In this document: positions 17,916 to 39,398 of the stretch, piece by piece | How the letters are laid out: the number at the start of each line of letters is the position of its first letter | How positions within the stretch are numbered: the stretch's first letter is position 1 | Assembly (NCBI RefSeq): GCF_001758345.1 | Contig: NZ_MKQS01000005.1 | Span: 125,983-170,702, forward strand | Direction: 5' to 3' | Length of the DNA: 44,720 nucleotides | Origin: Acinetobacter towneri | Lineage (GTDB): Bacteria; Pseudomonadota; Gammaproteobacteria; Pseudomonadales; Moraxellaceae | Notes under the pieces: model-generated | Told to the model about the DNA's origin: nothing | Database searches by the model: none | The model's input: the letters and a program-made list of their open reading frames with translations, nothing else | Position numbers and translations under genes: made by a program

Positions 17916-18371
17916 TTATCGACCATCCCAATTTGATGTTGCGGACAAACTGCATGAGTTTACACCTTTTGCCCATGATCTTTGTCCTTGGTCGTTTAGA
18001 CAAATCCATCCATTATTTGCTTGCGCAGTTCCAGTTTTAGGCTTGGCGATCAACAACCATGTCCCCACTTTCGCAGTGGGTACTGTAAGTGCGGTTCCAT
18101 CTACATCTGTCAATGTAATATCATATAAAGGCTGTGTTCTAGGTATGGTGGCCGCCCCATAGACATTCAATACTGTTCTTCCTGCATAATTATTATTTGC
18201 CATACGGAAATTTGCTAAAGTCCGTGCTATTTCTATCATTTCAGCCTGTGTGTCTGTACGATCTGTTCTAATCTTATAAGCGGCATATGATGGATAAGCA
18301 ATTGCGGCTAAAATACCAATAATCGCAACCACAATCATCAGCTCAATCAGTGTAAAACCTTGCTTATACAT
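17916..18371 (-). CDS. Minor pilin, PilE-like (second copy)
   Basis: This type IV prepilin has a short leader MYKQG, cleavage before [24 protein letters not shown], and the conserved Glu at mature position 5. The product is about 151 residues with a globular C-terminal domain; two cysteines (GWICLND and VNSCSLS) probably make the D-loop disulfide. A start at 18380 is possible, but the GGGAGG site is too close to it and is well spaced for ATG 18371, two bases after the preceding gene's stop. It is the last gene of the fimT-pilV-pilW-pilX-pilY1-pilE operon and probably a minor or alternative pilus-tip component. Confidence 0.88.
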
Positions 18372-18373
18372 AT

Positions 18374-18949
18374 TTACCATTCCTCCCTACCTGCTGAAAC
18401 TGAACCACAATCTGTATAAGTTACGAGCGATTTGGTTTTATTTTTACAGCGTAATCCAGCACTTGTCATTAATAAGTCATAATTTCTGGTATCACTTCCT
18501 TCTGCTTTCATCGTCCAGGCCCGTGCTCTTATAACTGGTGGAATAGATGCATCTGTTAAAAGTTTGGTTGGATCTTCAGCATCCCGAATGGTAATGGTAT
18601 ATTTAATAGCTGAACCTGTTGCCCCTCTGGGTAAAGTCACTGAATTCAATGGGGTTCCTGCTGGTACATCGTAAATATAATTAGGATCAAAGCCCCTATA
18701 AGTAAAGTTTTTTGCTTTATGACGCTCCAATTGCTCTGCAATTTTCTGCATTTCTTGCTGCACCATTGAAACATCTGCTCGTCTAGCATATTCCTGATAA
18801 CTCGGAAATGCAATTGCAGCAATAATTGCAATAATTGCAACCACAATCATAAGCTCAATTAAGGTAAAACCTCGCGTTGGCTTCCCCAAACGACTGTTAC
18901 AAGTCGTTGGAGAAACTACACAAGCGTGCTGTTTAATTATTTTTTCCAT
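18374..18949 (-). CDS. pilE: Minor pilin PilE
   Basis: This type IV minor pilin of about 191 residues has the prepilin motif [23 protein letters not shown], with Glu5 present. The leader before the cleavage site is unusually long (about 27 residues, including two cysteines) compared with the usual 5-12. Its C-terminal half contains LRCKNKT and TDCGSVS, a probable disulfide. The ATG at 18949 lies inside the end of pilY1, overlapping its stop, which implies translational coupling. In Pseudomonas PilE connects the PilVWX-PilY1 tip complex to the pilus; the same order is kept here. Confidence 0.88.
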
Positions 18950-21900
18950 TTTTCGTACCACCGTGTTGGATTAATGGTCGGAACACATTTCCATCTTCCA
19001 GCCCCTCTCTCATTCCCAGCAATGGTAAAGTCAGGACATGATCCCGCTGTTGACTCTTCCACTGGTGCCGGTGTAATACCCACAATCCCGCTACCTAGTG
19101 TTTTATCATTACATTCGGTCACACCATCTGGACAGCCTGTAGTTTTGGTTTGGAACCCAGTGTCCGCATCTGCAGCGGTATTGACAGTACCTGTTGTGGT
19201 TAGACATGCCCCAAATGGTAGGCAATAACGCTGACGGTTGGTTTCCCCGACTACACGTGGCAAACATGGGTTTTGTGGCGCAATACCCGTACCTTGTGGG
19301 TCATAAACAGGAACAATCAAGTTACCTGTTAAAGCAATCGGCTCCTCGAATGCTTTCATACCACCCGCAACACGAAAACCACTTGTTGTGCGCTCTACAC
19401 CCGCACTGTTACTAGATAGTGAACGATACCAACCATTTTTGGTGGCAGATGCGCCAATAAACACATCTGGAACATTTCCTGCCAACAACTGTGGATTTAT
19501 TTGCATGGTTTGCAAATCCACATTTTGAGTCGATAAGGTTGGTGTACCCGTAATCAAGTCACGTTTAATGAAATCGCGATCAATCACACCATATACATTA
19601 TTGACTAGACGATCACTCAATGCGGTCGTTGGCAACATACCATCACGACCTATTGTAGGAGTAACATCTAATGGCGTACTACGGTTACCCGATGCCAAAC
19701 CAATCAACATAAAGGTAGTTGCACCTTGGTCATGAATGGTTACCGTTGGTGCTTCATAAAAACGTGGGTTTTTACCATCTGCCAACGCAGCTCCAGCTGT
19801 AGTCGTTGCTAAGTTTGCTAAGCGCACCACACGTTTACCGAAGTTTGCCGTTGTAGTACCTGCAGTGTTATTAAGGTCTGCACGGAATACTTGACCGCCT
19901 AAATCACCAAAGTACAGATGATCGACCAAACCATCACTATCACGGTCAATCGTACTGATTCGACTTACAATACTGTGAGTCATGTTGGCGTTATTTGTGC
20001 TTGCTCCTGTACTACTTGCCCACCACAAACGCGCTCCTGTATCAGCATCGATTACATATACTGCATTACCTTGCGCTTCGGATTTGTTATTACAAGTCGC
20101 ATCTGGAAAATCAGTATTTGCAACTGTAGCACCCAAGCTGAAGCGAGGGTTTTCATAGCATTGATCATAACCGCCACCCACAATCATCACACGTTTAATT
20201 ACATTGTTATGTCGAATGTTGGCAAGCACAGGTTTAGACCAAGACTGTCCCATACGGCTAAAGTCCGATTGATCGCGACCCACTCTAAACAAGAATTTAG
20301 GTGTATCTGGGTCAAGCACATCTAAACCATAATAGCTCTCGCCACCCATGCGCAAGCCACCATATACATTCATTTTTCGTGCTTTAACCACACTGTCGGT
20401 ACTTGGAGAACTTGATTTTTGTGCAGTATATAAAGAGTCGGCAACCCATGCGCCATCTAAACCTGCTTGAGGTGCGTTAATATCAGCCTCACCTTTTACT
20501 AAGGCTTTAGATGCAACACTATTACGAAGCAATTCAGATGGTACAAACACCATTTGCTCTTTACCAGTTTCGCTGTCGACAATATGCAAGCCGCCTTCCA
20601 TCGTACCATATAAAATAGATTGACTACGGGTGCTGGTTAAATTACCCGAAGCATCTAAAGTACCCGAATAAGTCAACTGCACTGGGAAAGAATGAATACT
20701 ACCACCCATTGCAACATGTGGTGCTGGCGAAAGCGCAAGTGTAGTTGGCAATGCCGTTGCAGTTGCATCTAACGGTACGCTATAACCCAAATAGTTCAAC
20801 AATTTTTGCTTAGCCAACAATGGCATGTCTTGTAAGGTGGTTTGGTTACCAAACTTACCCAACACATAAGCTGGAACACCTGTGGCTGGCAAAGGACCTT
20901 CAGGTATACGCAACAAGTTTGCACCATTACCTGCACCCGCTAAAGTTGCACCACCAGTTGCTGATACATCTGTATAGAGTTTACGTAGTGCATCTGGTTC
21001 CGCTTTAAACTCATATTGAGGAGGACTTACCGTCAAATTTTCTGTTTGACCACTAATTGGCATTGGTAAGCGCGAATAAGCACCACCTAAACCAATAATA
21101 CCACCATCGTTATAACTTTTATTGTTATACACCGCGATACTATTCCACAGGTCTTTGGTACCCGATCTAAATGAACCATCGGTATTATAAACTAGGGTAC
21201 TACCATCCGCTGCTCCAAATGCACCCGCATTTGTACCAGAGGTCAATACTTTATAGCGTTTTAAGTTACCTGCCCAAACCAACTTACCACCTTGTGGGTC
21301 TGGCTCTAAAGCACGTAAATAACCATAAGGCTGAAAACCTGATGGGCTCAAGGCATCTGAAGGTACAGAAATTGCACCTGTCGTTAAAGGCGCAAGTGGT
21401 GCTGCACCTAAGTTGTTAATAAAAGCAATAACACTGGCTGTTACACCTTGTGCACTTTGGGTAGTAAAGAAGCCACCATTACCATAACCAGGACTGGCTA
21501 GAGCATGCGTAGTTGGTTGCCCAGGTGAACAAGAGTCGTTACCTGTACGATCACTTTGAGTTCGTGAACTTAATTTACAAGCCTGTTGTACATGCGTTGC
21601 CGTTAAGCTATTAAAATCATTACCAAAACCCACAAAAGCGGTTTGGATTGAAACTCCAGCAGGATTCGTTGTTTTATCAAATAGTTTTTTGGCGAACTCC
21701 CCCATACAGTTCCATGATGCTGACTCACCAGTATTAAGACCTCCACTACTAGGGCATGTAAAACTAGTGCTATCTAGTGCAGCAGACATAATGGATTTAG
21801 CATGAGCATTACTTGAACCATTCGCCGCACCATCAGATAAAATGTAAACACCTTGCCCATCACAACTGACACGATCAGCAGCAGGAGGTAGAGGTGAAAT

Positions 21901-22668
21901 ATATTTTAGACCATCTTTTGAGTTAGCAATTGAATTATCAAAACCACTATCAGCATTTGGGCCTAATTGCATTTCCTTTTTATAAAATACATCCGAACCA
22001 TTGTTGGTATAGTCACCTAAATCAGATGGAGGGGTAGAACCTAATAATGTCCAACCACTAGAGCTACAAGATTGTATATTATTCGTAAAGTCGGTAGTAC
22101 TTAAACTATCACAACGATAATAAGTTGTGGTTACAACTTCTTTCTTATAAACATCCACTTGTATTTCTGCTTCACTTCGTGTGGAAGTTCCCATCAAATA
22201 TGCAGCGGCTTCAGCATAAGCATGTGCTGTTGGAGTCAAACCACTTGCAGTCAGCCCATCGACCGCAGTTCTTAAAGTGCTACGTTGTGCGGAGCCGACA
22301 ACCCCCAATGGTGCAGCAGGGACTAAAATTTTCCCTCGCCTATCTCCCAAAGAGTAATGCCCCAAACCAACACTAACATTCGACAAAGTAGCATCGTTAC
22401 TATCTAAAAAAGCATTCATACCCGCTTTTAAACGAGTTAAACGAGTACCCGTTTGCCCAGTATCTGTACCCCCCATCGAACCAGATGTATCCAACATCAT
22501 GACAATGGTTTTTTTACCCGCCGTCGGTACCGCATAAATTTGCAGGTCGCTTGCTTGCGCAACTGAAGAAGCAACAAGCAACGTAGCTGTAAATGCCCAA
22601 GCAAATGAGACACCATACTTATATTGGTGAATATTTATTTTAGGACTTTGTAGCCTTTGATTTTTCAT
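18937..22668 (-). CDS. pilY1: Pilus tip adhesin / assembly protein PilY1
   Basis: This large secreted protein of about 1243 residues is carried at the pilus tip and works in adhesion, pilus extension/retraction control and, in Acinetobacter, competence (ComC-type). A signal peptide (ending SVAQA) leads into an N-terminal von Willebrand A-like domain with the MIDAS motif [10 protein letters not shown] near residue 62. The C-terminal third is the PilC-type beta-propeller domain, with the calcium loop [18 protein letters not shown], matching the DxDxDGxxD site that gates pilus retraction in PilY1. Numerous cysteines lie at the extreme C-terminus. ATG 22668 has GGGGAG at good spacing and is preferred to the frame start 15 bases upstream. 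It lies just after pilX. Confidence 0.94.
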
Positions 22669-22683
22669 CTTAATTCTCCCCAA

Positions 22684-23520
22684 TTATGTTGGTGCGCTAA
22701 CCTGAACAAAACGCGTTTTCAAATCAATTTCTTGAATTTGCGTATTTACAGGTATGCCATATTCTGTCAAACAATCTGCCATAGTTTTTTTGGTGCGCAA
22801 CCCTGCATCAGCGTTGTCATTGATATATCCCACCGCACTGCCATTACCAATACACTCACGTTGCACATCTGCCAAATCGGCACTCGAATAATTCGGTAAA
22901 ATCGCAGTCGCTGTGACACGCACCCGACCATCCACCTTACCTTGTTGAACATTGGAACCTCCGCTTGCATCTGTACCACGGTCTAAGTCCGAACCTGGTG
23001 CGGCATCCGTATTTGGCCCTACAATATACTTAATAGCCACTTGAGTGACTACGGCTTCGCGCGCGCTACCAAAGTCTTGTTCCAAATCACAAAAGCCACT
23101 ACGGTTAGTTTCAGTAGTGTCTACAGTAGCTTTGGTGTCATCTGCAGCTATAGCTGTTGGCGGAATAAGCACGGTCATATCTAAAACACTGTTCACTTGC
23201 AAAGCAGCAGTTGGTTTATAACAAAAAACATATTCACGACCACGAGCAAGTGGGTCTTTTTGATCACTAATTGCCTTACCCACCACACTCATCACCGAAG
23301 TTAAGTTTTTATAACTACTGCGGTTTAACAAAATATTGGTTGGTGTATCACTGGTTTGTAGTAACAACTGACCAATTTGACTGTTGGTTGCAATATTTAA
23401 CGATGTCATTGCCACACGTATGGCTAAAACACCCACAATAGTAATCACTAACAACATAATTAAAACCACAATTAATGTTGCACCACGCTGTTGACGCTGG
23501 AATGTAGGTTGAACTTTCAT
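22684..23520 (-). CDS. pilX: Minor pilin PilX
   Basis: The 278 residues start with the PilX N-terminal motif RQQRGATLIVVLIMLLVITIVGVLAIR, in which a G-ATLIVV sequence replaces the usual GFTLIEL; the Glu5 of classical pilins is absent, as is typical of PilX. The extracellular part has paired cysteines (FCYKP, FCDLE, RECIG, DCLTE). PilX is part of the initiating tip complex with PilV, PilW and PilY1. Its ATG shares one base with the pilW stop (TAATG), indicating coupled translation. Confidence 0.92.
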   Translation of the reverse strand: MKVQPTFQRQQRGATLIVVLIMLLVITIVGVLAIRVAMTSLNIATNSQIGQLLLQTSDTPTNILLNRSSYKNLTSVMSVVGKAISDQKDPLARGREYVFCYKPTAALQVNSVLDMTVLIPPTAIAADDTKATVDTTETNRSGFCDLEQDFGSAREAVVTQVAIKYIVGPNTDAAPGSDLDRGTDASGGSNVQQGKVDGRVRVTATAILPNYSSADLADVQRECIGNGSAVGYINDNADAGLRTKKTMADCLTEYGIPVNTQIQEIDLKTRFVQVSAPT

Positions 23521-24512
23521 TATCTTTCTCCCAAACCATTTCTAAACGTCACTGCCGTGCTATACACACGTCGTGCAAATCGATTAGTCGTGTCTGTTAA
23601 TGTGACATTTTGATTTAGAATATTAATACTTCGGGTTAAATCTATATCGTTATTGCGTGTGTTGTCGGTAGAACGCACTAACACTGCCATTTTTACCGAA
23701 ACAATACGAGGTGGCTCCGCCAATGCTGTACGAGCTGCCGCAGCAACAGTTCGATATTGATTAATCGTATAATAAGCCATGTTGCCCGCTGCATTTCTAA
23801 CACCCAATTGCACGGTAAAATGATCAACCCGAGGCATAATCAACTCACCCGCTCCACCAAACCCAGCAATTGTTGTCGGTTCTGCTACAGCTGTGGCATT
23901 TGGGGTGTTAGCATCGCACGCTAAACCGTAATCTGTACCAGTGGTTGCAGTTGCTACAGCACGGCGCACGAAATAGCGCTGAATCACATAATCGCCCGCT
24001 TGAACATTTGCGCCCTCGCAATTCACCATGGCGTTTGGTGCAACAAATTGTATGGTGAGCTGATCACTTGCCACACTCACATTCGACAAACCTTGCCATT
24101 CATTTACAGTTGAACTCACCGACTCCCCTGTACCAACACTATGACTCAACAAGCCCTGTGCAATAAAAGGTGCACCAGTGGGAATTGGAATATTTGCATC
24201 CGTTACCGTTGCAGTTCGTGCAGTGAGCACCACTCCACCCCACGGAGTTTGTTCATTTAACTCTGGAAAATCGGTATTAATGTAATTGGCTAGACGCAAA
24301 TCTCTCGCTACATAGTCCAAACCAAACACACCGCTATTTTGCAGCTCTGCGTTTGCTTGCTGCATTCGTGAGGTGAGCAACCCACCAAGAAAGAGTTGTA
24401 TTGCTGCAGCTGTTATCAACAACCCCAGTGCCAAAGCCACCATTAATTCAATGAGCGTAAAGCCCGCTTGCGAGCCAAAACCAACCTTATGCTTTTTAAA
24501 TGGAGTTTTCAT
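23520..24512 (-). CDS. pilW: Minor pilin PilW
   Basis: This is a type IV minor pilin of about 330 residues. The leader MKTPFKKHKVGFGSQAG precedes FTLIELMVALALGLLITAAAIQLFLGG, the usual PilW N-terminal helix. The large globular region has cysteines in VNCEGA and LACDAN. The start at 24512 overlaps the pilV stop as TAATG, and its own stop overlaps the pilX start the same way; an upstream in-frame start at 24536 is less likely. Confidence 0.93.
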   Translation of the reverse strand: MKTPFKKHKVGFGSQAGFTLIELMVALALGLLITAAAIQLFLGGLLTSRMQQANAELQNSGVFGLDYVARDLRLANYINTDFPELNEQTPWGGVVLTARTATVTDANIPIPTGAPFIAQGLLSHSVGTGESVSSTVNEWQGLSNVSVASDQLTIQFVAPNAMVNCEGANVQAGDYVIQRYFVRRAVATATTGTDYGLACDANTPNATAVAEPTTIAGFGGAGELIMPRVDHFTVQLGVRNAAGNMAYYTINQYRTVAAAARTALAEPPRIVSVKMAVLVRSTDNTRNNDIDLTRSINILNQNVTLTDTTNRFARRVYSTAVTFRNGLGER

Positions 24513-25048
24513 TAATATGCCTCCATCATTAAACAATTCGATCCATTAATATAAACACCCGATGTATTCATGCAATTACTTACATCAGCTGTTGTACTCG
24601 TCGCACTCAAAGTCGTATTTCCCCAAGCAGCATATATACATTGCCGCTGAATCGGCGCCGAACCAACACCCGGACAACTCGTCATCGTAATATTCATTCC
24701 AATATCAAAAGCAGCTCGAGCAGCCATAAATGCATCGAACTGCGCCATTTGAGCTGGTGTACATAAATTGTTTGAACATGATGGAGAGGGTGCTGTAGGT
24801 GCAGCAGTAATATTAGTATAACCACGGACTGCGGCTGGGTAGTTTGTTTGCGCCGCTGGATTGGCCCGCATATTCTCAGCCAACGTGCGTGCAATTAACA
24901 TCCCTTGCGAACGCGACAAGGCCTCACTAGAGGCATCCACAGCACGAATTTGCAAGATGCTATAACCCAAAACACCAACAGCTAATAGCAAAAGTGCAAC
25001 GAGCACTTCTATTAGCCCCACACCTTGTTGAGATTGATGAGATTTCAT
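24512..25048 (-). CDS. pilV: Minor pilin PilV
   Basis: This minor pilin of about 178 residues has the PilV-type leader and helix MKSHQSQQGVGLIEVLVALLLLAVGVLGYSILQ. The motif ALSRSQGMLIARTLAENMRANP just after the helix is strongly characteristic. Cysteines occur at PSCSNNLC, TSCPG, RQCIYAAW and near the C-terminus. The ATG at 25048 overlaps the fimT stop as TAATG. It is part of the pilus-initiation complex. Confidence 0.93.
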   Translation of the reverse strand: MKSHQSQQGVGLIEVLVALLLLAVGVLGYSILQIRAVDASSEALSRSQGMLIARTLAENMRANPAAQTNYPAAVRGYTNITAAPTAPSPSCSNNLCTPAQMAQFDAFMAARAAFDIGMNITMTSCPGVGSAPIQRQCIYAAWGNTTLSATSTTADVSNCMNTSGVYINGSNCLMMEAY

Positions 25049-25581
25049 TAGCACGTCCCCGAAGCTTGACTAATAATTCCTAGTCTTGTAACCGTAATAG
25101 TTTTCTGCTTCCCTGATTTACAAAAATTAAATGTTTGTGGCGTGCTTGGGCTTATACTTCCAATGTCACTAAATAAAACTGATGTTGCACTTGTAGACTC
25201 AACCCTTACCCCTGCATCTAATTGCACAGAAATAATTCTACTTTTCAAAACTTCCTCTTTCTGCGCTGTAGTCAAAACAGGCACCACAGGTGGCCCAGGA
25301 TTAGTTGCTGTATATTCAGGTATCGTCGCCGTTGCACATTCATCTTTAGTAAAATCATTATCTGTCTGCGTCTTGCTCAAACACAAACCCACTGTTGTTT
25401 TCATTAATGCCGCCTGCGATTTAGCCTGATTAATTGCCATCACCAATTCACGTGCCGAACTATTAATTTTTTGTTCTGAAATTAAACTCCTAAAAGACGG
25501 CGCAGCCATTGACGCAATAATCGCCATAATCGCAATCGTCACCATCAATTCTATTAAGGTGAATCCTCGATTTTTCCCCAT
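25048..25581 (-). CDS. fimT: Minor pilin FimT/FimU (GspH family)
   Basis: This prepilin of about 177 residues has the short leader MGKNRG and the helix FTLIELMVTIAIMAIIASMAAPSF. The following segment SSARELVMAINQAKSQAALMKTTVGLCLS is the GspH/FimT family signature. A late cysteine (FNFCKSG) and a terminal SGTC suggest a disulfide. FimT proteins bind DNA in natural transformation in some species; FimU joins the tip complex to the shaft, and position alone cannot separate the two names. ATG 25581 follows AGGT at good spacing and opens the operon; the promoter should lie in 25582-25660. Confidence 0.9.
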   Translation of the reverse strand: MGKNRGFTLIELMVTIAIMAIIASMAAPSFRSLISEQKINSSARELVMAINQAKSQAALMKTTVGLCLSKTQTDNDFTKDECATATIPEYTATNPGPPVVPVLTTAQKEEVLKSRIISVQLDAGVRVESTSATSVLFSDIGSISPSTPQTFNFCKSGKQKTITVTRLGIISQASGTC

Positions 25582-25663
25582 CGCCCGCACCTAACTCTTT
25601 TAAAATTCCTTACTCTATATTAAATTTATTTTTTACAGAACCAATACAAAGCAGATAAGAGTA

Positions 25664-32611: not shown

Positions 32612-34243
32612 TCAGCGCGGCTTTGCCTCATCCAATAAAGTCGCATAATCTACATTGACCTGCCACAAAGTGCTTAACAACCATAATTGCTTTTTGGCTT
32701 CTGCCTCATACCCATTAAAGGCTAATATGCGTGCATATTTCAACAAATCGTAACGGGTTGGATAATTCAACACAATTTCATGGATATCCTGCAATTGATC
32801 AGGCGTTTGTAGGCTATACGGATTTAAACGAATCCACGCAATGCGGCGGTTAAATTCTTGCAGTACAAAAATACGCTCTTGATGGGTGATTTTTTCAGGT
32901 GTGTGTTCATAGCGTACCGACTGATTCAATTTAGGCACCATCACCTCATAATCACGATAAATCAGCATCAACAACAATGCGCCAACTACAAAAGTACTGC
33001 GTAAATAAATTACAGATAAAGTGAAGTTTTTGAACACCCGTTGTGACTGAACCATGCCGATAATAAAACCTACAGGCAGCAAGAAGTAGGCATAGTTTTG
33101 TGGAAATTCCAGCATGGCATGCACGCTAAATGCCCCGACCATTAAAATCCCCACAACCGATTCCACCGATTGGGTATATTTATGCAACTGGTAAGCCCAA
33201 TAGCCCAGATACGCCAAAAATGGCACACCGAGTATCACACCATTCCAAAGTAAAAAGTCTAAAATGAAATTGTGTGCGCTGCGAATCCACACAGGACCTT
33301 GCACAAATTCGCTAATCGTGACATACGCCACACTGGTTTGATGCCAACCATAGCCCCACCACGGTTGATGCTCAATCGCAGCGAGCATTTGCTGCCAAAT
33401 CGCCAAGCGTGACATATCACCTGTGGCGCGCTGCACCACATCACGAGATTGCACTGAAAGCTCTGCACTTTGTGAGAGCAATTGACTGAAAGCAGGTGCA
33501 ATAAAAATCAGCCCGATAAATGCGGCAAACCACAGCAAACTATAGCGCCATTTAATCCGCATCACGCCACGGTATTGCTGATAGCCCAGATAGGTCAAGA
33601 GACACAGCGATGCCAACCACGACGTCCGCGATTGACTCAATACCACACCCACCAAAATCATGGCAGCAGCAATCACAATCCACACGGTTTTAAGTTTTTG
33701 TTTTTCGTATAAATATAGGCATGCCATGAGTGACATCACCAAAAAGGTCGCCATATTATTGGGTTGGGCGAAGTTGGCATAAGGGCGTTGTCCGATTTTA
33801 ATATCTACCATCATTGGCAGGTATTGGTCGAGTGTCAGCCACTGGCAAATCGCCATGAATGCGGTGATACTTCCCACGCCGAGTAGCACATAACTAAAGC
33901 CTGCGAAGATGCGTTCACGTTCGCTGTTGGTTTGCGTGAGGTTGTAGCCAAAAATGATTGTTAACCAAAAACTGAAGATATACACGCTGCTGAGCAAGGC
34001 TTTGTCTAAGAAGTAGACTAAGCCAAAGCCCCACTGAATGAGTGGAACACTGCACAGTGCCAGTAAGGGCAGGCTGATTTTGGGTATTTGTAATTTTTCT
34101 TTAAACAGGCAGGCTGCAAGGGCAAACAGGGCAAAAAATGCGTAGAGTTCGCCTGTATAGGTAACCCATGGGCGGTAGTGAATGGGCAATAGCCATGCAA
34201 GGGAGATGAGAATACTGGCCAAAAGCAAGAGCAAAAATTTCAT
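32612..34243 (-). CDS. pglL: PglL-like O-oligosaccharyltransferase (Wzy_C family)
   Basis: This inner-membrane enzyme of about 543 residues has around a dozen helices and large periplasmic loops. The Wzy_C-type segment is IGQRPYANFAQPNNMATFLVM, then VLSQSRTSW, then WWGYGWHQTSVAY with RSAHNFILDFLLWNG; the histidine and arginine residues of this loop are essential in PglL/WaaL enzymes. A C-terminal extension (about 90 residues, VRYEHTPEKITHQERIFV onward) is typical of PglL, longer than TfpO. Placement near the pilin gene suggests transfer of a lipid-linked glycan to pilin, as known for the ComP-specific PglL of Acinetobacter. The upstream start at 34282 lies inside a terminator hairpin, so ATG 34243 is preferred; neither has a strong ribosome site. 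Confidence 0.85.
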   Translation of the reverse strand: MKFLLLLLASILISLAWLLPIHYRPWVTYTGELYAFFALFALAACLFKEKLQIPKISLPLLALCSVPLIQWGFGLVYFLDKALLSSVYIFSFWLTIIFGYNLTQTNSERERIFAGFSYVLLGVGSITAFMAICQWLTLDQYLPMMVDIKIGQRPYANFAQPNNMATFLVMSLMACLYLYEKQKLKTVWIVIAAAMILVGVVLSQSRTSWLASLCLLTYLGYQQYRGVMRIKWRYSLLWFAAFIGLIFIAPAFSQLLSQSAELSVQSRDVVQRATGDMSRLAIWQQMLAAIEHQPWWGYGWHQTSVAYVTISEFVQGPVWIRSAHNFILDFLLWNGVILGVPFLAYLGYWAYQLHKYTQSVESVVGILMVGAFSVHAMLEFPQNYAYFLLPVGFIIGMVQSQRVFKNFTLSVIYLRSTFVVGALLLMLIYRDYEVMVPKLNQSVRYEHTPEKITHQERIFVLQEFNRRIAWIRLNPYSLQTPDQLQDIHEIVLNYPTRYDLLKYARILAFNGYEAEAKKQLWLLSTLWQVNVDYATLLDEAKPR

Positions 34244-34280
34244 GCTGTAACAGTTGAGAAAAAGATGAGCTATGATAATC

Positions 34281-34311
34281 AAAAAAGCAGATCAAAAGGT
34301 AATCTGCTTTT
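34281..34311 (-). terminator. Terminator between the pilin accessory gene and pglL
   Basis: On the minus strand AAAAGCAGAT and ATCTGCTTTT form a perfect stem around a nine-base loop, followed by T. It ends the pilin accessory transcript just before pglL. Confidence 0.8.
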
Positions 34312-34316
34312 AAATC

Positions 34317-35027
34317 TTATTCATGCCATGGTCTTAAATCAACTACCTTAATAATTTTGTGATCAGAATCAAGTAATACCGTTAAGCCAACACCTGTCGT
34401 TCTCAATGGCATCCAATATTGTGCTGTTGGATAATCTTTTAACACTCTTTCAAAATCACTTGCTTTATTAAATTGCTTTAAAGATGATAATGGCTCTGCA
34501 TATTGTTTTAAACGCTGCTCTGCATAACTTAAGTCATTGTATGTTGTTGGCATCAATTGCGGAGCAGATAAGCCATTATTTAGATTCTTTGCATCATCAA
34601 CTGCTACCCATTGTGGTTGTAACCAACCATTATTGTTATAATCTGGATCTGCTTGTTTTTGATCTTTAGTATCGACAACATTTGCAGGTATAACCTCAAA
34701 TAACCAACCGGCTTGTACAATCCATGCAGGTCTTGATTGTGCAATAGCATATACACCATAGCCCGTTGCCAATACTTGAATCAACACAATAATGCTCAAG
34801 TCCATTTTTAAGGTTTTTTTTCCCTCTTTGTAAACCAATAAACTTAGTAAGGGACCAACAATCACATCAATTACGACTAGCATTAAAAAAATTGTCATCA
34901 CCCCTTCTGCCGAAGCCAAAGGTGCTGGATACCAAACAAAAAATACAAGTGCTATAAGAACTATAGCTACTAAAATTGAGCTAGCAAAATGCATCAAAAA
35001 ATAACGGACTCTCTTTGAAAAAAACAT
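34317..35027 (-). CDS. TfpX/TfpZ-family type IV pilin accessory protein
   Basis: This protein of about 236 residues is directly comparable to the accessory proteins encoded beside pilin genes in Pseudomonas (TfpX/Y/Z), which raise pilin assembly and are membrane-bound. Four N-terminal helices (FLMHFASSILVAIVLIALVFFVWY; GVMTIFLMLVVIDVIVGPLLSLLVY; LSIIVLIQVLATGYGVYAI) precede a soluble periplasmic domain (about residues 110-236) with QSRPAWIVQAGWLFEVIP and YPTAQYWMPLRT. The ATG at 35027 has AAGGA seven bases upstream; the frame start at 35060 overlaps the previous gene. It lies at the downstream end of the AT-rich island but looks less AT-rich by eye. Confidence 0.85.
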   Translation of the reverse strand: MFFSKRVRYFLMHFASSILVAIVLIALVFFVWYPAPLASAEGVMTIFLMLVVIDVIVGPLLSLLVYKEGKKTLKMDLSIIVLIQVLATGYGVYAIAQSRPAWIVQAGWLFEVIPANVVDTKDQKQADPDYNNNGWLQPQWVAVDDAKNLNNGLSAPQLMPTTYNDLSYAEQRLKQYAEPLSSLKQFNKASDFERVLKDYPTAQYWMPLRTTGVGLTVLLDSDHKIIKVVDLRPWHE

Positions 35028-35043
35028 AAATTTTCCTTTTCCC

Positions 35044-36540
35044 TTAAATGCCTTTACCATATTTGAATTCAGTAATCATATTATCATCTGTAATCAATTC
35101 AGGCTTTCTAGGAAAAGCAGGAATTTGTTCATAAGGAATAAGTGGATTTTTCATGATTTCATTTTTTGCAAGAATACATTGATTTTCACCGCTAAAAATC
35201 TTTTGTTTACTTAAAGGATCTTCTAGTTCACATAAGCTAGTGATCATATCTTTTTCACTTAGCAGAATTTGATTACTCGAAGCCAACACAAAGAACTTAT
35301 ATTTATAAACTCTCGGAAAAACTTGCTTTGCTGTATAAAATGCATCAATTGATTGGGTCGTATTGTAAAAAGCAACTCCATTTTCATTTAATACACTTTT
35401 AATAAGATGAAGAAAATTTTGACTTAGCAAGTTTGACCCATAAGCTCGCCAGTGCCAAGTCGTATTCATAAGTACTATATCAAACTTTTTATTTTGATTT
35501 TTCTTCAACCATTTTCTACCATCATCAAAAACAATTTCTATTCTTCTATCTTTAAGTATCCTAGATATGGCAGGATCACTTTTGATTAAATCATGATATG
35601 CAGGATTAATCTCAATAACTGTTATTTTTTCCAAGCTTGGCATCATACTTAAAACCTTGACCCAAGAGCCAGTGCTAAGACCAATGACCAAAGCATCTTT
35701 TGCCTTAGGTCTTATTGTAGTCAGAAAATATGCTCGATCTATACCATTTGTATTATGAAAAATATCAGTATTGAATTTACCATCATAAACATTTGCACCA
35801 AAAACAACTTGATCACCATGAGAATTATATACTTGTATAAACCCATGTTTATTTTCAATAATTTTTTCTGGATATACATTTAGTTCATAACTATTTTTTG
35901 AAAGCTCATAAAAAAGTTTTTCAGGTAGAAATAAGCAAAAAAATACAAACATATTTATTAAAAATATTATAAATTTAAATTCTTTTTTATTAAAACAAAT
36001 AGCTGAGATCAAAAGTGTTAAAAAACAAATCAAAATATAGACTTGCTGAGTATTAAGAAAATCTAAAGCTACAAAACTAATAAGCAAAGGAGCTAAGGCA
36101 CTTCCAAAAACATTGGAAAAATATACATTGGAAATCTGAGCTCCTGTTTTAACTTGATTTGCTCCGACATGATGTATCATCGGGAAAACAATTCCTCGAA
36201 CCATAGCAGAAATAAAAACAAAACTACCTAAAACAAGAATTAAACCATTAAAATAAAAACTAAAATATACTAAAACAATTAATAATAAATCAACAAGTGC
36301 CGCAATAAAAAAAATAATACCGATATTAGATAGCTGTAAATTTTCTCTTAATTTACATATTTTTTTCCCAATTATTGCACCAATAGATATTCCAACAAGA
36401 AATAATGCTAAAGTAAAGGAAAAGGTCTGCGGTACAGACATTCCAGCAAAAGAAATTATCCGCATCCACAGAATTTCTTGTGACAAACTAAGAAATCCAC
36501 TAAAAAAAGAAATCAAATAGATAATTTTATAATTTTTCAT
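35044..36540 (-). CDS. Membrane-fused spermidine-synthase-like protein
   Basis: This is a protein of about 498 residues with an N-terminal half of roughly seven membrane helices (IIYLISFFSGFLSLSQEILWMRIISF, where F.SG...L..EI.W.R is the family motif) and a C-terminal Rossmann aminopropyltransferase-like domain. The cofactor site reads LVIGLSTGSWVKVL with the acidic residue in VIEINP, then IVFDDGRKWL. The loop that carries the catalytic Asp in spermidine synthases instead reads VLMNTTWHWRAYGSNLLSQNF, so a normal putrescine reaction is doubtful. It overlaps the preceding 210-residue gene by 14 bases (ATG within the end of that frame). The substrate is unknown; context suggests pilin, glycan or phosphoethanolamine modification. 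Strongly AT-rich. Confidence 0.8.
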   Translation of the reverse strand: MKNYKIIYLISFFSGFLSLSQEILWMRIISFAGMSVPQTFSFTLALFLVGISIGAIIGKKICKLRENLQLSNIGIIFFIAALVDLLLIVLVYFSFYFNGLILVLGSFVFISAMVRGIVFPMIHHVGANQVKTGAQISNVYFSNVFGSALAPLLISFVALDFLNTQQVYILICFLTLLISAICFNKKEFKFIIFLINMFVFFCLFLPEKLFYELSKNSYELNVYPEKIIENKHGFIQVYNSHGDQVVFGANVYDGKFNTDIFHNTNGIDRAYFLTTIRPKAKDALVIGLSTGSWVKVLSMMPSLEKITVIEINPAYHDLIKSDPAISRILKDRRIEIVFDDGRKWLKKNQNKKFDIVLMNTTWHWRAYGSNLLSQNFLHLIKSVLNENGVAFYNTTQSIDAFYTAKQVFPRVYKYKFFVLASSNQILLSEKDMITSLCELEDPLSKQKIFSGENQCILAKNEIMKNPLIPYEQIPAFPRKPELITDDNMITEFKYGKGI

Positions 36541-37159
36541 TATATTTACCATAAATAATAAAACCCGAAATAGCCACAATCACATTAAGTGTTGCAGCAA
36601 TATAAATCGTCTCAGATAAACCAATATAATTAAAAAAAATAAAACCTGTACCTAAAGCACCAAAACCAGCACCTAATGTATTATAGAAATATAAAACACC
36701 AATAGATTCACCAACATTATTTAGAAAACGATTAAAAAAACTTGTTAATAATGGCAATGTTGACCCCATTAAAAAAGTTGGAAACAATAATAATATAAAA
36801 TTAAGAAAAGAAATCTTTAATATACTAGAATAAACAAAATGATCTTGTAATAATAAAATAAGTTTACTACTAAAAAAACCAAAAACTCCTATTAAAAGCT
36901 CTATTAAGCAGAAAATAAAAATAGTATTTTCCTTAAATTTGTCCGCCATTCTTCCTCCATAGAAAGCCCCCATGCCTAAGCCAACCATAAAAATCGAAAT
37001 TATAATTGTTACTGATGTTAAATCAACCCCAAAACCTGTAAATAATAATCTCTGCCAACAAACTTGATAAATAAGAGCACTAAACCCCGATATAAAAAAA
37101 ATTGCAGCTAAAGTAGAAATCAGCTCTCTTTGAGTCTCTATCATTTTATCACTAGACAT
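36527..37159 (-). CDS. Membrane protein resembling the N-terminal half of fused spermidine-synthase proteins
   Basis: This is a 210-residue, all-helical membrane protein with five to six helices. It starts TLAAIFFISGFSALIYQVCWQRLLFTGFGVDLTSVTIIISIFMVGLGMGAFYGGRMADKF, the consensus of the N-terminal membrane module of 'spermidine synthase-like' fusion proteins, but it stops before any methyltransferase-like domain. The following gene has both modules and overlaps by 14 bases, so the two products probably form one membrane complex in which this subunit supplies an extra transport-like half. ATG 37159 has AAAAGGAT well spaced; it overlaps the upstream gene by 19 bases. An ATG at 37144 would overlap that stop as ATGA. 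AT-rich like its neighbours. Confidence 0.75.
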   Translation of the reverse strand: MSSDKMIETQRELISTLAAIFFISGFSALIYQVCWQRLLFTGFGVDLTSVTIIISIFMVGLGMGAFYGGRMADKFKENTIFIFCLIELLIGVFGFFSSKLILLLQDHFVYSSILKISFLNFILLLFPTFLMGSTLPLLTSFFNRFLNNVGESIGVLYFYNTLGAGFGALGTGFIFFNYIGLSETIYIAATLNVIVAISGFIIYGKYNEKL

Positions 37160-38796
37160 TTCCCATCCTTTTTATATAAATCATAATTTTCCTTACCCAT
37201 AATGAAACGTGGATACTGTTCAAAATTTCTTAATAAACTTTTATTTAAACTATATTTAGGTATTTCAATATTAGCAGCATCAACTAATGTTGGAAAAATG
37301 GCTGTTTGGTTTATTTTCTTATTATGATTTATGTCAATATTCTTTGTTTTTTCAACATTATTCTGTTTAAACATATTTGAATACCAAATAAAGCTTGAAA
37401 TTTCAAAATTAAAATGTGTTTCATTTCCATGTCCACTTTTTCCACAACCATCGATATACAAATCCTCACCATGATCTGATGAGAAAAATAGAAATGATTC
37501 AGTATTTTCTTTTAATTTCAACAACTCTATCAGTTCATTCAAAACATAGTCAGTATACGCTATTGAATTATCATAACTATTCAACATTTCATTTTTATAT
37601 TTTTGTTCTTGTAAACTATATTTTTCAATATCACGTAAAGAGGGTTTAAATAAATCATAATCATCAGAATAACGATGCAAGTAATTGTAATGACTCCCTA
37701 ATGTATGAACTATAATAAATTTATTTTTCTCATTGTTACTTATAATTTCTTTAAATTTTGGAATTAAAACTCCATCCAAATCACCTTTATTATTATAATT
37801 AGCCTTATTTAAAAAATATATATTATTTGCCTCTTTAGCATAAACAGATGTGCTTGTATCAAAAGTTCCAAACTTTTGTTGTGTTGATAACCAATAGGTT
37901 TTAAAATTTACTTCATTAAATACAGATATAATTGATCTTTCTGGGAAGTCATAACTAAAAACTTTTTCAGCAGGTTTTCTTGTTAGCATAATTGGAATCG
38001 AACTTCGTGTTGCATTTGATACAGAAACCATATCTGATAAATTTATCAAATTATCTTGATATTTTAGCTTCTTATTTGTTTCTCTACTATACCCATTTAA
38101 TTCCCAGTTCTGTCTTCGACTTGACTCTCCAATAACCAATACAATTATCTTATTGCTGTTATTATTTTTTAACTTTGCATTAAACTTAAAAAACTTTTTC
38201 CTATCAAAATCTTTATTAATTTTATCCTGCTCTACCAAGAAATCAGAAAATACTAAAAAAAGACCAAACGGATAGGTTTTCTTTATCTCTTGTAAGAATA
38301 TGTTTCTTTCTTCCACTAAAAAAGCATGAGTATGAAAATTTCCATTTATTTCAGAAGAAACTTTTTGGTTTAAAAGAAATGATATACACATATAAATAGA
38401 AAATAATAATAAAACCCAATATCGACTTCTATGCATCCAAACTAAAGGTTTTTTATGATTTTTATAAAATATAACACATATAATAAATAACCACAAAAAT
38501 AAGCCAAAAACATAAATTAATAAATTATATCCTAAAAAATTTATAGCTTCTTGAGTATTTGTTTCAAATATAATAGATAAAATTTGTTCATTAATTGATG
38601 CTTTATAGATTAATATATAAAATAAAATAAATGGGATAAAAAATAATAATGGAAACAAAAAAACAAGATATTTACTATTTTTTACAACTGAATAAAACCA
38701 AACAAGTAAAACAACACTTAATAAAAAAGCATCCAAATCTCTATCCATAATATATAAAAATATATTTGGAATTAATAATAGTAAAAAAATATACAT
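37141..38796 (-). CDS. Phosphoethanolamine-transferase-like sulfatase-fold membrane enzyme
   Basis: This 551-residue protein belongs to the EptA/EptC/PptA group, which moves phosphoethanolamine from phosphatidylethanolamine to lipid A, core sugars or, in Neisseria, pilin. Four to five N-terminal helices (residues 1-145) precede a periplasmic alkaline-phosphatase-fold domain. Metal and nucleophile residues are in place: IVLVIGESSRRQNWELNGY (Glu224), VSNATRSSIPIML (Thr263, nucleophile), HTLGSHYNYLHRY, FFSSDHGEDLY and SGHGNETHF. It lies immediately after the pilA terminator, so limited readthrough or a local promoter drives it; no strong ribosome site is seen. Target pilin rather than lipid A is an inference from position. 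Base composition is far more AT-rich than the rest of the window. Confidence 0.85.
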   Translation of the reverse strand: MYIFLLLLIPNIFLYIMDRDLDAFLLSVVLLVWFYSVVKNSKYLVFLFPLLFFIPFILFYILIYKASINEQILSIIFETNTQEAINFLGYNLLIYVFGLFLWLFIICVIFYKNHKKPLVWMHRSRYWVLLLFSIYMCISFLLNQKVSSEINGNFHTHAFLVEERNIFLQEIKKTYPFGLFLVFSDFLVEQDKINKDFDRKKFFKFNAKLKNNNSNKIIVLVIGESSRRQNWELNGYSRETNKKLKYQDNLINLSDMVSVSNATRSSIPIMLTRKPAEKVFSYDFPERSIISVFNEVNFKTYWLSTQQKFGTFDTSTSVYAKEANNIYFLNKANYNNKGDLDGVLIPKFKEIISNNEKNKFIIVHTLGSHYNYLHRYSDDYDLFKPSLRDIEKYSLQEQKYKNEMLNSYDNSIAYTDYVLNELIELLKLKENTESFLFFSSDHGEDLYIDGCGKSGHGNETHFNFEISSFIWYSNMFKQNNVEKTKNIDINHNKKINQTAIFPTLVDAANIEIPKYSLNKSLLRNFEQYPRFIMGKENYDLYKKDGKCLVIK

Positions 38797-38800
38797 TATA

Positions 38801-38830
38801 AAAAGAAAAGCCCTTATATAAAGGACTTTT
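38801..38830 (-). terminator. pilA terminator / attenuator
   Basis: On the minus strand AAAAGTCCTT pairs with AAGGGCTTTT (one G-U pair) around TATAT, followed by CTTTTT. It limits readthrough from the highly expressed pilin into the accessory genes. Confidence 0.8.
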
Positions 38831-38842
38831 CCAATTTAAATA

Positions 38843-39337
38843 TTATACAGAAGCTGTACAAGCTGCAGGACGATATTTAGCTAAAACTGTAGTATAACAA
38901 CGCCATGTACCATCAACAGCACGCTCCCAAACTAAAGTATTTTGAGTAGCAGGTTGAAGATCACCTGCTGCACCATTACCAAATGTTGCGGTAATTCTAT
39001 TTACAGCATTCGTTACAAGTGGACTTGTTACTTGAGCAACACCATTCACACCCGTAGTAACAGCTGTAGAACCATCTTGTTTATTACCAATTTGTAAATT
39101 AGAAGCAGTTGCGTCCAATTGACATTGGTTAGCAGCTGCTCCCAAAACCAATTTACCGTTCAACAAACAGTTATCTACCGCTGTTTTCATATTACCCGCT
39201 TCACCCATTACACGAGCAACCTGTGAACGAGCAATATAGTTTTGATAAGATGGAATCGCGATTGCCGCCAAAATACCAATGATCGCTACAACGATCATTA
39301 ATTCGATAAGGGTAAAACCTTTTTGCATCGTATTCAT
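38843..39337 (-). CDS. pilA: Type IV major pilin
   Basis: This is the major structural subunit of the type IV pilus, used for twitching and natural transformation. The product has 164 residues: leader MNTMQKG, cleavage before [36 protein letters not shown], with Glu5. The globular domain has cysteines at DNCLLNG and NQCQLD plus the C-terminal pair WRCYTTV and AACTASV forming the D-loop. ATG 39337 has GGAG at ideal spacing; an ATG five codons earlier does not. A sigma-54 promoter and a palindromic upstream site precede it. Nearby pglL, the accessory protein and the phosphoethanolamine-transferase gene suggest the pilin is post-translationally modified. Confidence 0.93.
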
Positions 39338-39398
39338 AAACATTCTCCACAAATGTTTGTTAATTTAATTATAAGCTTTGTAAGCTATTTTATACTTA

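Follow-up and report, generated by a model that had tools for sequence, protein, structure and literature searches.

Which modification do the genes serve that lie between the major pilin gene and its accessory gene in Acinetobacter towneri? The stretch of DNA analysed here, referred to as the window, comprises 44,720 nt of assembly GCF_001758345.1 (contig NZ_MKQS01000005.1, positions 125,983–170,702), and all gene coordinates count within it. On its minus strand the transcription order is pilA, Ept, TM6, SpdSyn, TfpZ and PglL, all in one direction, where Ept resembles phosphoethanolamine transferases and TM6 and SpdSyn are membrane proteins, the latter with a spermidine-synthase-fold domain. 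The reading that we favour, and consider evenly poised between right and wrong, is that of a pilin phospho-form island whose novel part, the TM6-SpdSyn pair, methylates phosphoethanolamine.

In the proposed mechanism, Ept would move phosphoethanolamine from phospholipid onto pilin in the periplasm, as its family and intact active site suggest. TM6 and SpdSyn would form one machine, consisting of a split unit of 12 transmembrane (TM) helices resembling the major facilitator superfamily (MFS) and a thirteenth helix, which would bring the spermidine-synthase-fold domain into the periplasm, a view based on the structure prediction, the naturally fused proteins and the distribution of charges. There the domain may act as an S-adenosylmethionine (SAM)-dependent N-methyltransferase on phosphoethanolamine, most likely once this is on pilin, to give a mono-, di- or trimethyl (phosphocholine) form, with the MFS part presumably supplying the cofactor. 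The complete version of this proposal, in which a split MFS-like carrier brings SAM to a periplasmic methyltransferase domain, pilin phosphoethanolamine becomes phosphocholine and the pair represents a new bacterial methyltransferase type, is put forward tentatively, as possible rather than probable. The features concerned are the following.

38843..39352, minus strand: pilA, type IV major-pilin gene (Pfam Pilin 8.7e-18, N_methyl 4.8e-10)
38804..38832, minus strand: terminator-like hairpin, possible attenuator, between pilA and ept (hairpin scan)
37141..38796, minus strand: Ept, EptA/CptA-like phosphoethanolamine-type transferase, 551 aa (Sulfatase 6.4e-44; active-site residues intact)
36527..37159, minus strand: TM6, 210 aa, putative first half of an MFS-like membrane unit (NCBIfam MFS_SpdSyn 61.2 bits)
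35044..36543, minus strand: SpdSyn, 7 predicted TM helices and a spermidine-synthase-fold domain (Spermine_synth 8.1e-11); the start end is 36579 if an upstream TTG is used
34317..35060, minus strand: TfpZ, TfpX/TfpZ-family pilin accessory protein (NCBIfam NF041437 254.6 bits, cut-off 200)
34283..34311, minus strand: terminator-like hairpin before pglL (hairpin scan)
32612..34282, minus strand: PglL-type O-oligosaccharyltransferase (Wzy_C, Wzy_C_2 and PglL_A above cut-offs)

A recurrent gene set beside pilin

Searches across 175 Acinetobacter genomes revealed SpdSyn matches at E ≤ 0.001 in five, three of them at 63–100% identity (the window's own genome, G020 and G127) and the other two at 25% identity inside frames of more than 1200 aa. 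All three close carriers have pilA, Ept, TM6 and SpdSyn contiguous; in G127 the island lies between the same flanking genes as in the window, and in G020 it occupies another site, in a pilin cluster with two further pilins. As the same four genes recur in the same order in two other Acinetobacter genomes and, more distantly, in other Proteobacteria, the arrangement is more than chance, and the locus is real, recurrent and mobile. Across the family Moraxellaceae, SpdSyn matches were obtained in 4/348 genomes, the fourth being a member of another genus (G1040) in which TM6-SpdSyn adjoins a 454-aa Sulfatase-family protein; no pilin-like frame was present among the listed open reading frames (ORFs) of at least 110 aa at that locus. 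A role as general type IV pilus accessory was rejected, with a TfpZ match in 82/175 genomes of the genus and close SpdSyn in 3/175.

An earlier sequence-based account of this locus (the preliminary description) had reported a one-strand gene set from pilA to PglL with overlapping middle genes, which the ORF coordinates bear out: the overlaps Ept/TM6, TM6/SpdSyn and SpdSyn/TfpZ are genuine. The high A+T that it ascribed to the three middle genes is equally apparent from GC contents of 23.7% (Ept), 27.2% (TM6) and 28.2% (SpdSyn), compared with 34.9% for TfpZ, 39.8% for pilA, 44.7% for PglL and 40.9% for the whole window, and its idea of acquisition by transfer is supported. As a finding that would refute it, it had named a location of the three genes chiefly at sites other than pilin loci among relatives; within the genus the outcome is in its favour, with pilA directly upstream in 3/3 close carriers, and this linkage loosens outside the genus, where the pair without pilin is common. 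What stands of the suggested pilin modification is a horizontally mobile, pilin-linked set in which a transferase of the phosphoethanolamine type is accompanied by an O-glycosylation ligase; pilin as its acceptor is what we infer.

For the transferase itself, the predicted residues E224, T263 and SSDHGED (439–445) are present as described, and H456 as well. Sulfatase-fold phosphoethanolamine transferases use a Thr nucleophile, a Glu and metal ligands, and the corresponding set E224, T263, D441, H442 and H456 is complete in Ept. The Pfam EptA_B_N match falls just under its cut-off, the best NCBIfam model is the CptA-type NF007933 with 208 bits (cut-off 404), and the EptA model NF008619 reaches 129 bits (cut-off 660). 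Ept-like proteins are frequent in the genus (158/175 genomes); among the matches listed, all relatives other than the three island copies are at most 32% identical, for which reason the assignment of Ept as the ordinary Ept of the genus was rejected. One such ordinary example, L015 from G151, has no pilin within its 4.5-kb locus.

The pilin tails provide a hint at the acceptor. Among seven pilins encoded directly before Ept (window, L008, L009, L047, L053, L211 and the second pilin of L057), five carry Ser in the tail that follows the last Cys, namely TASV (the pilA product of the window), QAST, TASTAASASGSPN, ETSS and APDAAASGS; the L053 pilin ends in CK and the second L057 pilin in CR. With TfpZ intervening (L052, L068, L206 and L207), the pilin ends in CR in 4/4 loci, and in L054, where an unidentified stretch lies in between, it ends in CRQS. 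For comparison, Ser follows the last Cys in 2/19 pilin-like frames from 28 TfpZ loci without the set in between (L150–L177), some of which may not be pilins and one of which (L172) is another pilin of G020. The Ser targeted by meningococcal PptA lies in the tail CRDASDAS (PMC10434233), and the tail comparison suggests that in the Acinetobacter form, too, the pilin tail may be the acceptor.

Terminator-like sites were found nine times in the window scan, compared with 4.5 in shuffled sequence. The one at 34283..34311 agrees with the terminator previously placed ahead of pglL; the hairpin between pilA and ept would let pilin be made in quantity while few transcripts continue into the genes for modification, and the corresponding spacers of the two other genus copies hold hairpin-like sequences with different stems, as judged by eye. 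Rfam and tRNA searches of the window gave no matches. Elsewhere in the window, the minus strand from 17916 to 25590 encodes several pilin-like N-termini and a 1248-aa ORF, which, from the look of the genes, we take to be perhaps minor pilins with a PilY1-like adhesin. In the G020 locus (L009, 1599–12386) the set belongs to a second pilin cluster, which has three genes for pilins, together with PglL, TfpZ and, directly after SpdSyn, a hydrolase of the beta-lactamase fold (PF00144), and further on long ORFs that by their look may be recombinases.

Active site and predicted architecture of TM6-SpdSyn

Active-site counts refer to 38 aligned SpdSyn rows, including that of the window and omitting four fragments of L049 and L068; the rows were partly chosen by the peptides MNTTWHW or ITDDNMI and are thus biased toward these motifs. 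At the acid position of GxG(D/E)G, residue 291, 38/38 rows have a non-acidic residue (S, I, T, G or V). Spermidine synthases carry their catalytic Asp in a D-x-x-D motif after strand 4; in the alignment to SpeE this catalytic position is N360 in every row, and at position 363 an aromatic residue (W, Y or F) takes the place of the second Asp in 36/38. E311, D341 and R343 are invariant, of which E311 and D341, the acids after strands 2 and 3, would by analogy bind the cofactor. Equally invariant are the motif N-x-x-x-x-W-R (N360, W365 and R366) as well as N394, T396, S398, N488 and E492. An N-x-x-aromatic sequence following strand 4 also characterises motif IV of amino-group methyltransferases; the SpdSyn of G1040, which stands outside the 38 rows, has other aromatic residues at this site. 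Spermidine synthases have two acidic signatures, the acid of GxG(D/E)G and a catalytic pair of Asp residues. Since SpdSyn has neither, polyamine synthesis was rejected, and the further amine group on pilin suggested in the preliminary description is unlikely; the evidence points to N-methylation of phosphoethanolamine instead.

TM6 had been described together with SpdSyn as two spermidine-synthase-like membrane proteins, a view that has to be revised for TM6. Both proteins pass the cut-off of 40 of the NCBIfam model MFS_SpdSyn (NF037959; SpdSyn with 53.3 bits), and TM6 covers positions 5–181 of its 480, i.e. the membrane part alone; with no synthase domain, it was rejected as a second synthase. 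A Pfam MFS_1 match falls just under its cut-off, and TM6 appears to supply the half that SpdSyn lacks for a complete 12-TM MFS unit. Natural TM6-SpdSyn fusions occur in L044, L062, L072 and L073, where each ORF matches both parts separately by BLAST, and further loci appear fused by hidden Markov model (HMM); in the joint alignment of fused and single proteins (A7), the TM6 half is based on four rows.

The predicted SpdSyn structure (pLDDT 89.0, pTM 0.84) has seven long helices ahead of the domain, and a seventh hydrophobic segment is found in 38/38 rows, with a best 19-mer hydropathy of 0.93–2.77 and one row below 1.4. The model of the L044 fusion (pLDDT 86.6, pTM 0.88) contains 13 membrane-length helices, and its residues 1 to ~420, corresponding to TM6 and the membrane part of SpdSyn, superpose on complete MFS transporters (9w1r: Z 32.8, root-mean-square deviation (rmsd) 3.6, 370 aligned), the structure at rank 50 still scoring Z 27.2. 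The soluble domain of the predicted model aligns best with spermidine synthase 1uir_B (Z 22.1, rmsd 3.2, 259 aligned) and lower with the methyltransferase METTL13 (Z 16.3, rmsd 2.5, 171 aligned) and an m4(2)C synthase (Z 15.9); similarity of fold does not by itself establish function. The structure alignment (A5) omits L067, L074 and L079. Mean Lys/Arg counts in SpdSyn amount to 0.92 at the N-terminus and 3.92, 1.74 and 0.84 in loops 2, 4 and 6, compared with 0.21, 0.79 and 0.47 in loops 1, 3 and 5, a pattern that fits a cytoplasmic N-terminus. The Cys count of the soluble domain (zero in 25/38 rows, two in five, odd in eight) gives no topology signal.

Relatives in Neisseria and other lineages

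Neisseria gonorrhoeae DSM 9188 (L043) carries a TM6-SpdSyn relative, whose neighbours we read as the nuo operon. SpdSyn was detected in 2/83 Neisseriaceae genomes and 2/46 Neisseria genomes, the gonococcus and G209, with 99% identity to each other. G209 is probably N. meningitidis, because of this identity and because its pptA is spread over two reading frames, as a phase-variable gene would be. A gonococcal PptA candidate (L146:4770-6416), so named by us from its place among cell-wall genes, lies apart from the TM6-SpdSyn pair in the genome and has the same best model as Ept of the window, the CptA-type one. Matches to it at E ≤ 1e-60 were limited to 3/46 Neisseria genomes, namely both SpdSyn carriers and, at 36% identity, G193, so that close pptA is restricted to the same two genomes as SpdSyn. 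In one Cardiobacteriaceae genome (L044), a TM6-SpdSyn fusion starts 50 bp after a protein 44% identical (233/530) to the gonococcal PptA candidate. Across 12 genomes of that family, the close pair occurs in one (a second match, G643, is 27% identical and lies in a 1269-aa frame), and a PptA relative in two, the second being a partial match of 41% identity without the pair.

The meningococcal pair we tentatively take to be NMB0239/NMB0240, from gene order. NGO1749 and NGO1750, guessed to be the gonococcal pair, were rejected, since PMC13295694 has them as NADH-quinone oxidoreductase genes; the meningococcal tags may consequently be off too. The genes dca/pptA are listed as absent from N. lactamica in PMC1538595, where an earlier array study is quoted as calling NMB0239, NMB0240 and NMB0415 absent from all commensals.

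According to PMC4010543 (2014), gonococcal pilin carries mono- and dimethylated phosphoethanolamine in a pptA-dependent manner, for which a methyltransferase route was concluded; an enzyme for phosphatidylcholine was described there as not readily identifiable, and SAM as expected to be unavailable in the periplasm. A 2023 survey (PMC10434233) leaves the phosphocholine route open and reports phosphocholine to be unaltered upon inactivation of NMB1270 (PmtA-like). These published points would agree with a membrane methyltransferase whose domain is periplasmic and which has its own MFS carrier, is tied by gene order to pilin and PptA-type genes and shares its two Neisseria genomes with close pptA, and we propose the Neisseria TM6-SpdSyn relative as the candidate methyltransferase behind pilin phosphocholine. 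In the open-licence PMC literature, as represented by titles, abstracts and passages, we found no paper giving TM6-SpdSyn this role, and, among the papers listed, none tying a spermidine-synthase-like protein to pilin or phosphocholine. How pathogenic Neisseria make pilus phosphocholine is thus an open question in print for which this locus names a two-gene candidate, resting on gene order, phyletic pattern and active site, with an architecture that suggests an answer to the periplasmic SAM problem. If true, the proposal would explain the host-mimicking phosphocholine on gonococcal and meningococcal pili and predict phosphocholine on certain Acinetobacter and Burkholderiales pili. The locus also suggests that some bacterial proteins currently annotated as spermidine synthases may belong to a broader enzyme class whose members act beyond the cytoplasm, methylating molecules that are secreted or exposed at the surface.

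To place the pair in its wider family, 53 loci were examined (window, L008, L009, L043–L080, L140, L141 and L206–L215; L042 was omitted as the same place as L008). A pattern scan of named genomes, picking by MNTTWHW or ITDDNMI, had given 39 loci, and ten extra loci represent the best TM6 matches, Comamonas granuli (G186) not counted, from the 26 matching genomes among 349 of the family of that species. TM6 is upstream of or fused to SpdSyn in 50/53 loci, the exceptions being L050, where the contig begins, and L049 and L215, where SpdSyn is split or broken and TM6 lies nearby by BLAST. Ept was found at most 1.5 kb upstream on the same strand in 16/42 loci having at least 2.6 kb upstream of SpdSyn, using an HMM built partly from the same loci; among the 40 loci with at least 5.5 kb upstream, 15 have Ept and 11 a same-strand upstream pilin. 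These counts exclude L141 (Sulfatase-family protein downstream), L219, L212, which has Ept on a short contig, and L215, where BLAST shows a fragment of Ept. When the Ept profile was run over 16 whole carrier genomes, 13 matched; in the genomes of L046 and L051 the top-scoring Ept is found at a different place, close to ribosomal genes, with no pilin beside it. PglL directly follows SpdSyn in L053 and L068, and TfpZ relatives lie inside the island in L052, L057, L068, L206 and L207, so the gene combination of the preliminary description is not unique to the window genome.

In a maximum-likelihood tree of 46 SpdSyn rows, midpoint-rooted for drawing only, the window, two other genus rows, L044, the gonococcus and G1040 form one six-row group (100/100), within which the position of the gonococcus is less certain (89/50); four of the six rows have an unusual letter composition for which the tree models do not allow. 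A class sample of 369 genomes gave three matches above 550 bits, the next best scoring 159; in the same scan, 201/369 genomes match at E ≤ 0.001, many of the weaker matches lying in 800–1100-aa frames. TM6-SpdSyn without upstream Ept or pilin was observed in L056, L058, L061–L063, L065–L067, L069, L071, L075 and L078 (Myxococcota, Planctomycetota). In Comamonas granuli (L068, 7902–9524), SpdSyn extends over two frames (387 + 139 aa), as a pseudogene or through sequencing error. Sulfatase-family (PF00884) proteins adjoin TM6-SpdSyn in L219 (9881–11245, another genus of the family) and L141 (5577–7547, G401), so that the partner may be any extracytoplasmic phospho-head-group transferase.

Competing explanations and known systems

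Several points weigh against the methylation proposal. Gene order, phyletic pattern, residues and predicted folds are what the analysis shows; topology, cofactor, substrate and SAM transport are putative. The seventh helix is short in the window SpdSyn model (residues 187–203), and as the mean Lys/Arg count is 0.84 before and 1.11 after this helix, charge alone leaves the side of the domain undecided. Ept of the window, 25% identical to the gonococcal PptA candidate over 422 columns, is by sequence not a PptA orthologue, and several Burkholderiales island pilins have no Ser tail. As the two Neisseria carriers are sister species, one by inference, their co-occurrence counts as one event. G193 encodes a distant PptA-like protein (C1:1865669-1867051) in a genome without TM6-SpdSyn, and is predicted by our proposal to be without a methylated form. 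In the N. lactamica set of PMC1538595, hybridisation was seen for NMB0239 and NMB0240, tentatively taken for the pair. PMC10434233 mentions another PmtA-like ORF for N. meningitidis and a single one for N. gonorrhoeae, at 30–32% identity, and these weak relatives make an ordinary PmtA route possible. Finally, no Ept was found within 1.5 kb upstream in 26/42 loci, 11 of them from Myxococcota and the rest spread across Proteobacteria (including the gonococcus), Planctomycetota and Verrucomicrobiota, and 3/16 carrier genomes (L048, L055 and L078) gave no Ept match at all, from which it follows that the TM6-SpdSyn family also works outside the pilin-Ept context.

In one alternative, which we consider improbable, the target of Ept and TM6-SpdSyn is lipid A or some other molecule of the cell surface, and the adjacency to pilA reflects chance or a habit of mobile elements. 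Lipid A enzymes are indeed among the relatives of Ept, and the pair has no pilin neighbour in 29/40 loci; against it, pilin neighbours recur across several lineages, the best Ept model is CptA-type as for the PptA candidate, and the G020 set, at its other site, again comes with its own pilin. A different order of events, TM6-SpdSyn methylating phosphatidylethanolamine in the lipid and Ept or PptA then transferring the methylated head group, would be attractive since a membrane protein can reach lipid and a cytoplasmic domain would need no periplasmic SAM, and Ept-type enzymes draw head groups from phospholipids (PMC4010543). We nevertheless regard it as unlikely: according to the same source, phosphatidylcholine is not reliably found in gonococci, PptA with PilE in the phosphatidylcholine-making P. 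aeruginosa gave phosphoethanolamine and not phosphocholine, and the effects are intrinsic to each protein substrate, which speaks against an altered donor supply.

The remaining alternatives concern the chemistry of the pair. TM6-SpdSyn could transport or flip a substrate, its domain binding a nucleotide without catalysis, and so only assist Ept or PglL through donor supply or regulation, as the complete MFS fold in the fused model and PglL after SpdSyn in L053 and L068 might suggest; a pocket motif invariant across phyla is unlike a dead enzyme, albeit in rows partly picked by motif, and this option appears quite doubtful to us. Closest to the preliminary description is an aminopropyltransferase adding an aminopropyl (polyamine-like) group to phosphoethanolamine or pilin. 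Such enzymes are the best-matching known structures by both sequence and fold, but the acid for decarboxylated SAM is absent from all 38 rows, Asn replaces the catalytic Asp in all 38 and an aromatic residue the second Asp in 36, which makes this reading very unlikely.

Among known systems, the EptA/CptA phosphoethanolamine transferases share fold family and active-site residues with Ept, and differ in that their curated cut-offs lie far above the Ept scores and in the pilin context of Ept. The fused MFS/spermidine synthase family NF037959 includes TM6 and SpdSyn by cut-off, while TM6-SpdSyn represents a distinct subfamily with its own motif. The Neisseria PptA system differs in the 25% identity of its transferase to that of the window and in the dispersed location of its genes in the gonococcus; it resembles the island in having a phosphoethanolamine transferase that acts on type IV pilin, as would that of the island, in the C-terminal Ser region of meningococcal pilin, comparable to the Ser tails of three Acinetobacter island pilins, and in a TM6-SpdSyn relative in the same two genomes as close pptA. 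A parallel in architecture comes from fungi, where a 7-TM N-terminal histidine methyltransferase (NHMT) of secreted lytic polysaccharide monooxygenases has a spermidine-synthase-like domain (PMC10349129). As described there, the 7-TM sequence is confined to filamentous Ascomycota save one unclassified fungus, and its authors raise SAM supply in the endoplasmic reticulum as a possible limit. NHMT is eukaryotic and has a different substrate, and a split MFS partner is not reported in the pertinent passages of PMC10349129. In its published description, however, it shares with SpdSyn seven TM helices followed by a spermidine-synthase-like domain that lacks the acid for decarboxylated SAM, the loss of the GxG(D/E)G acid being the criterion by which its authors distinguish NHMT from spermidine synthases, and it is itself an enzyme that modifies secreted proteins.

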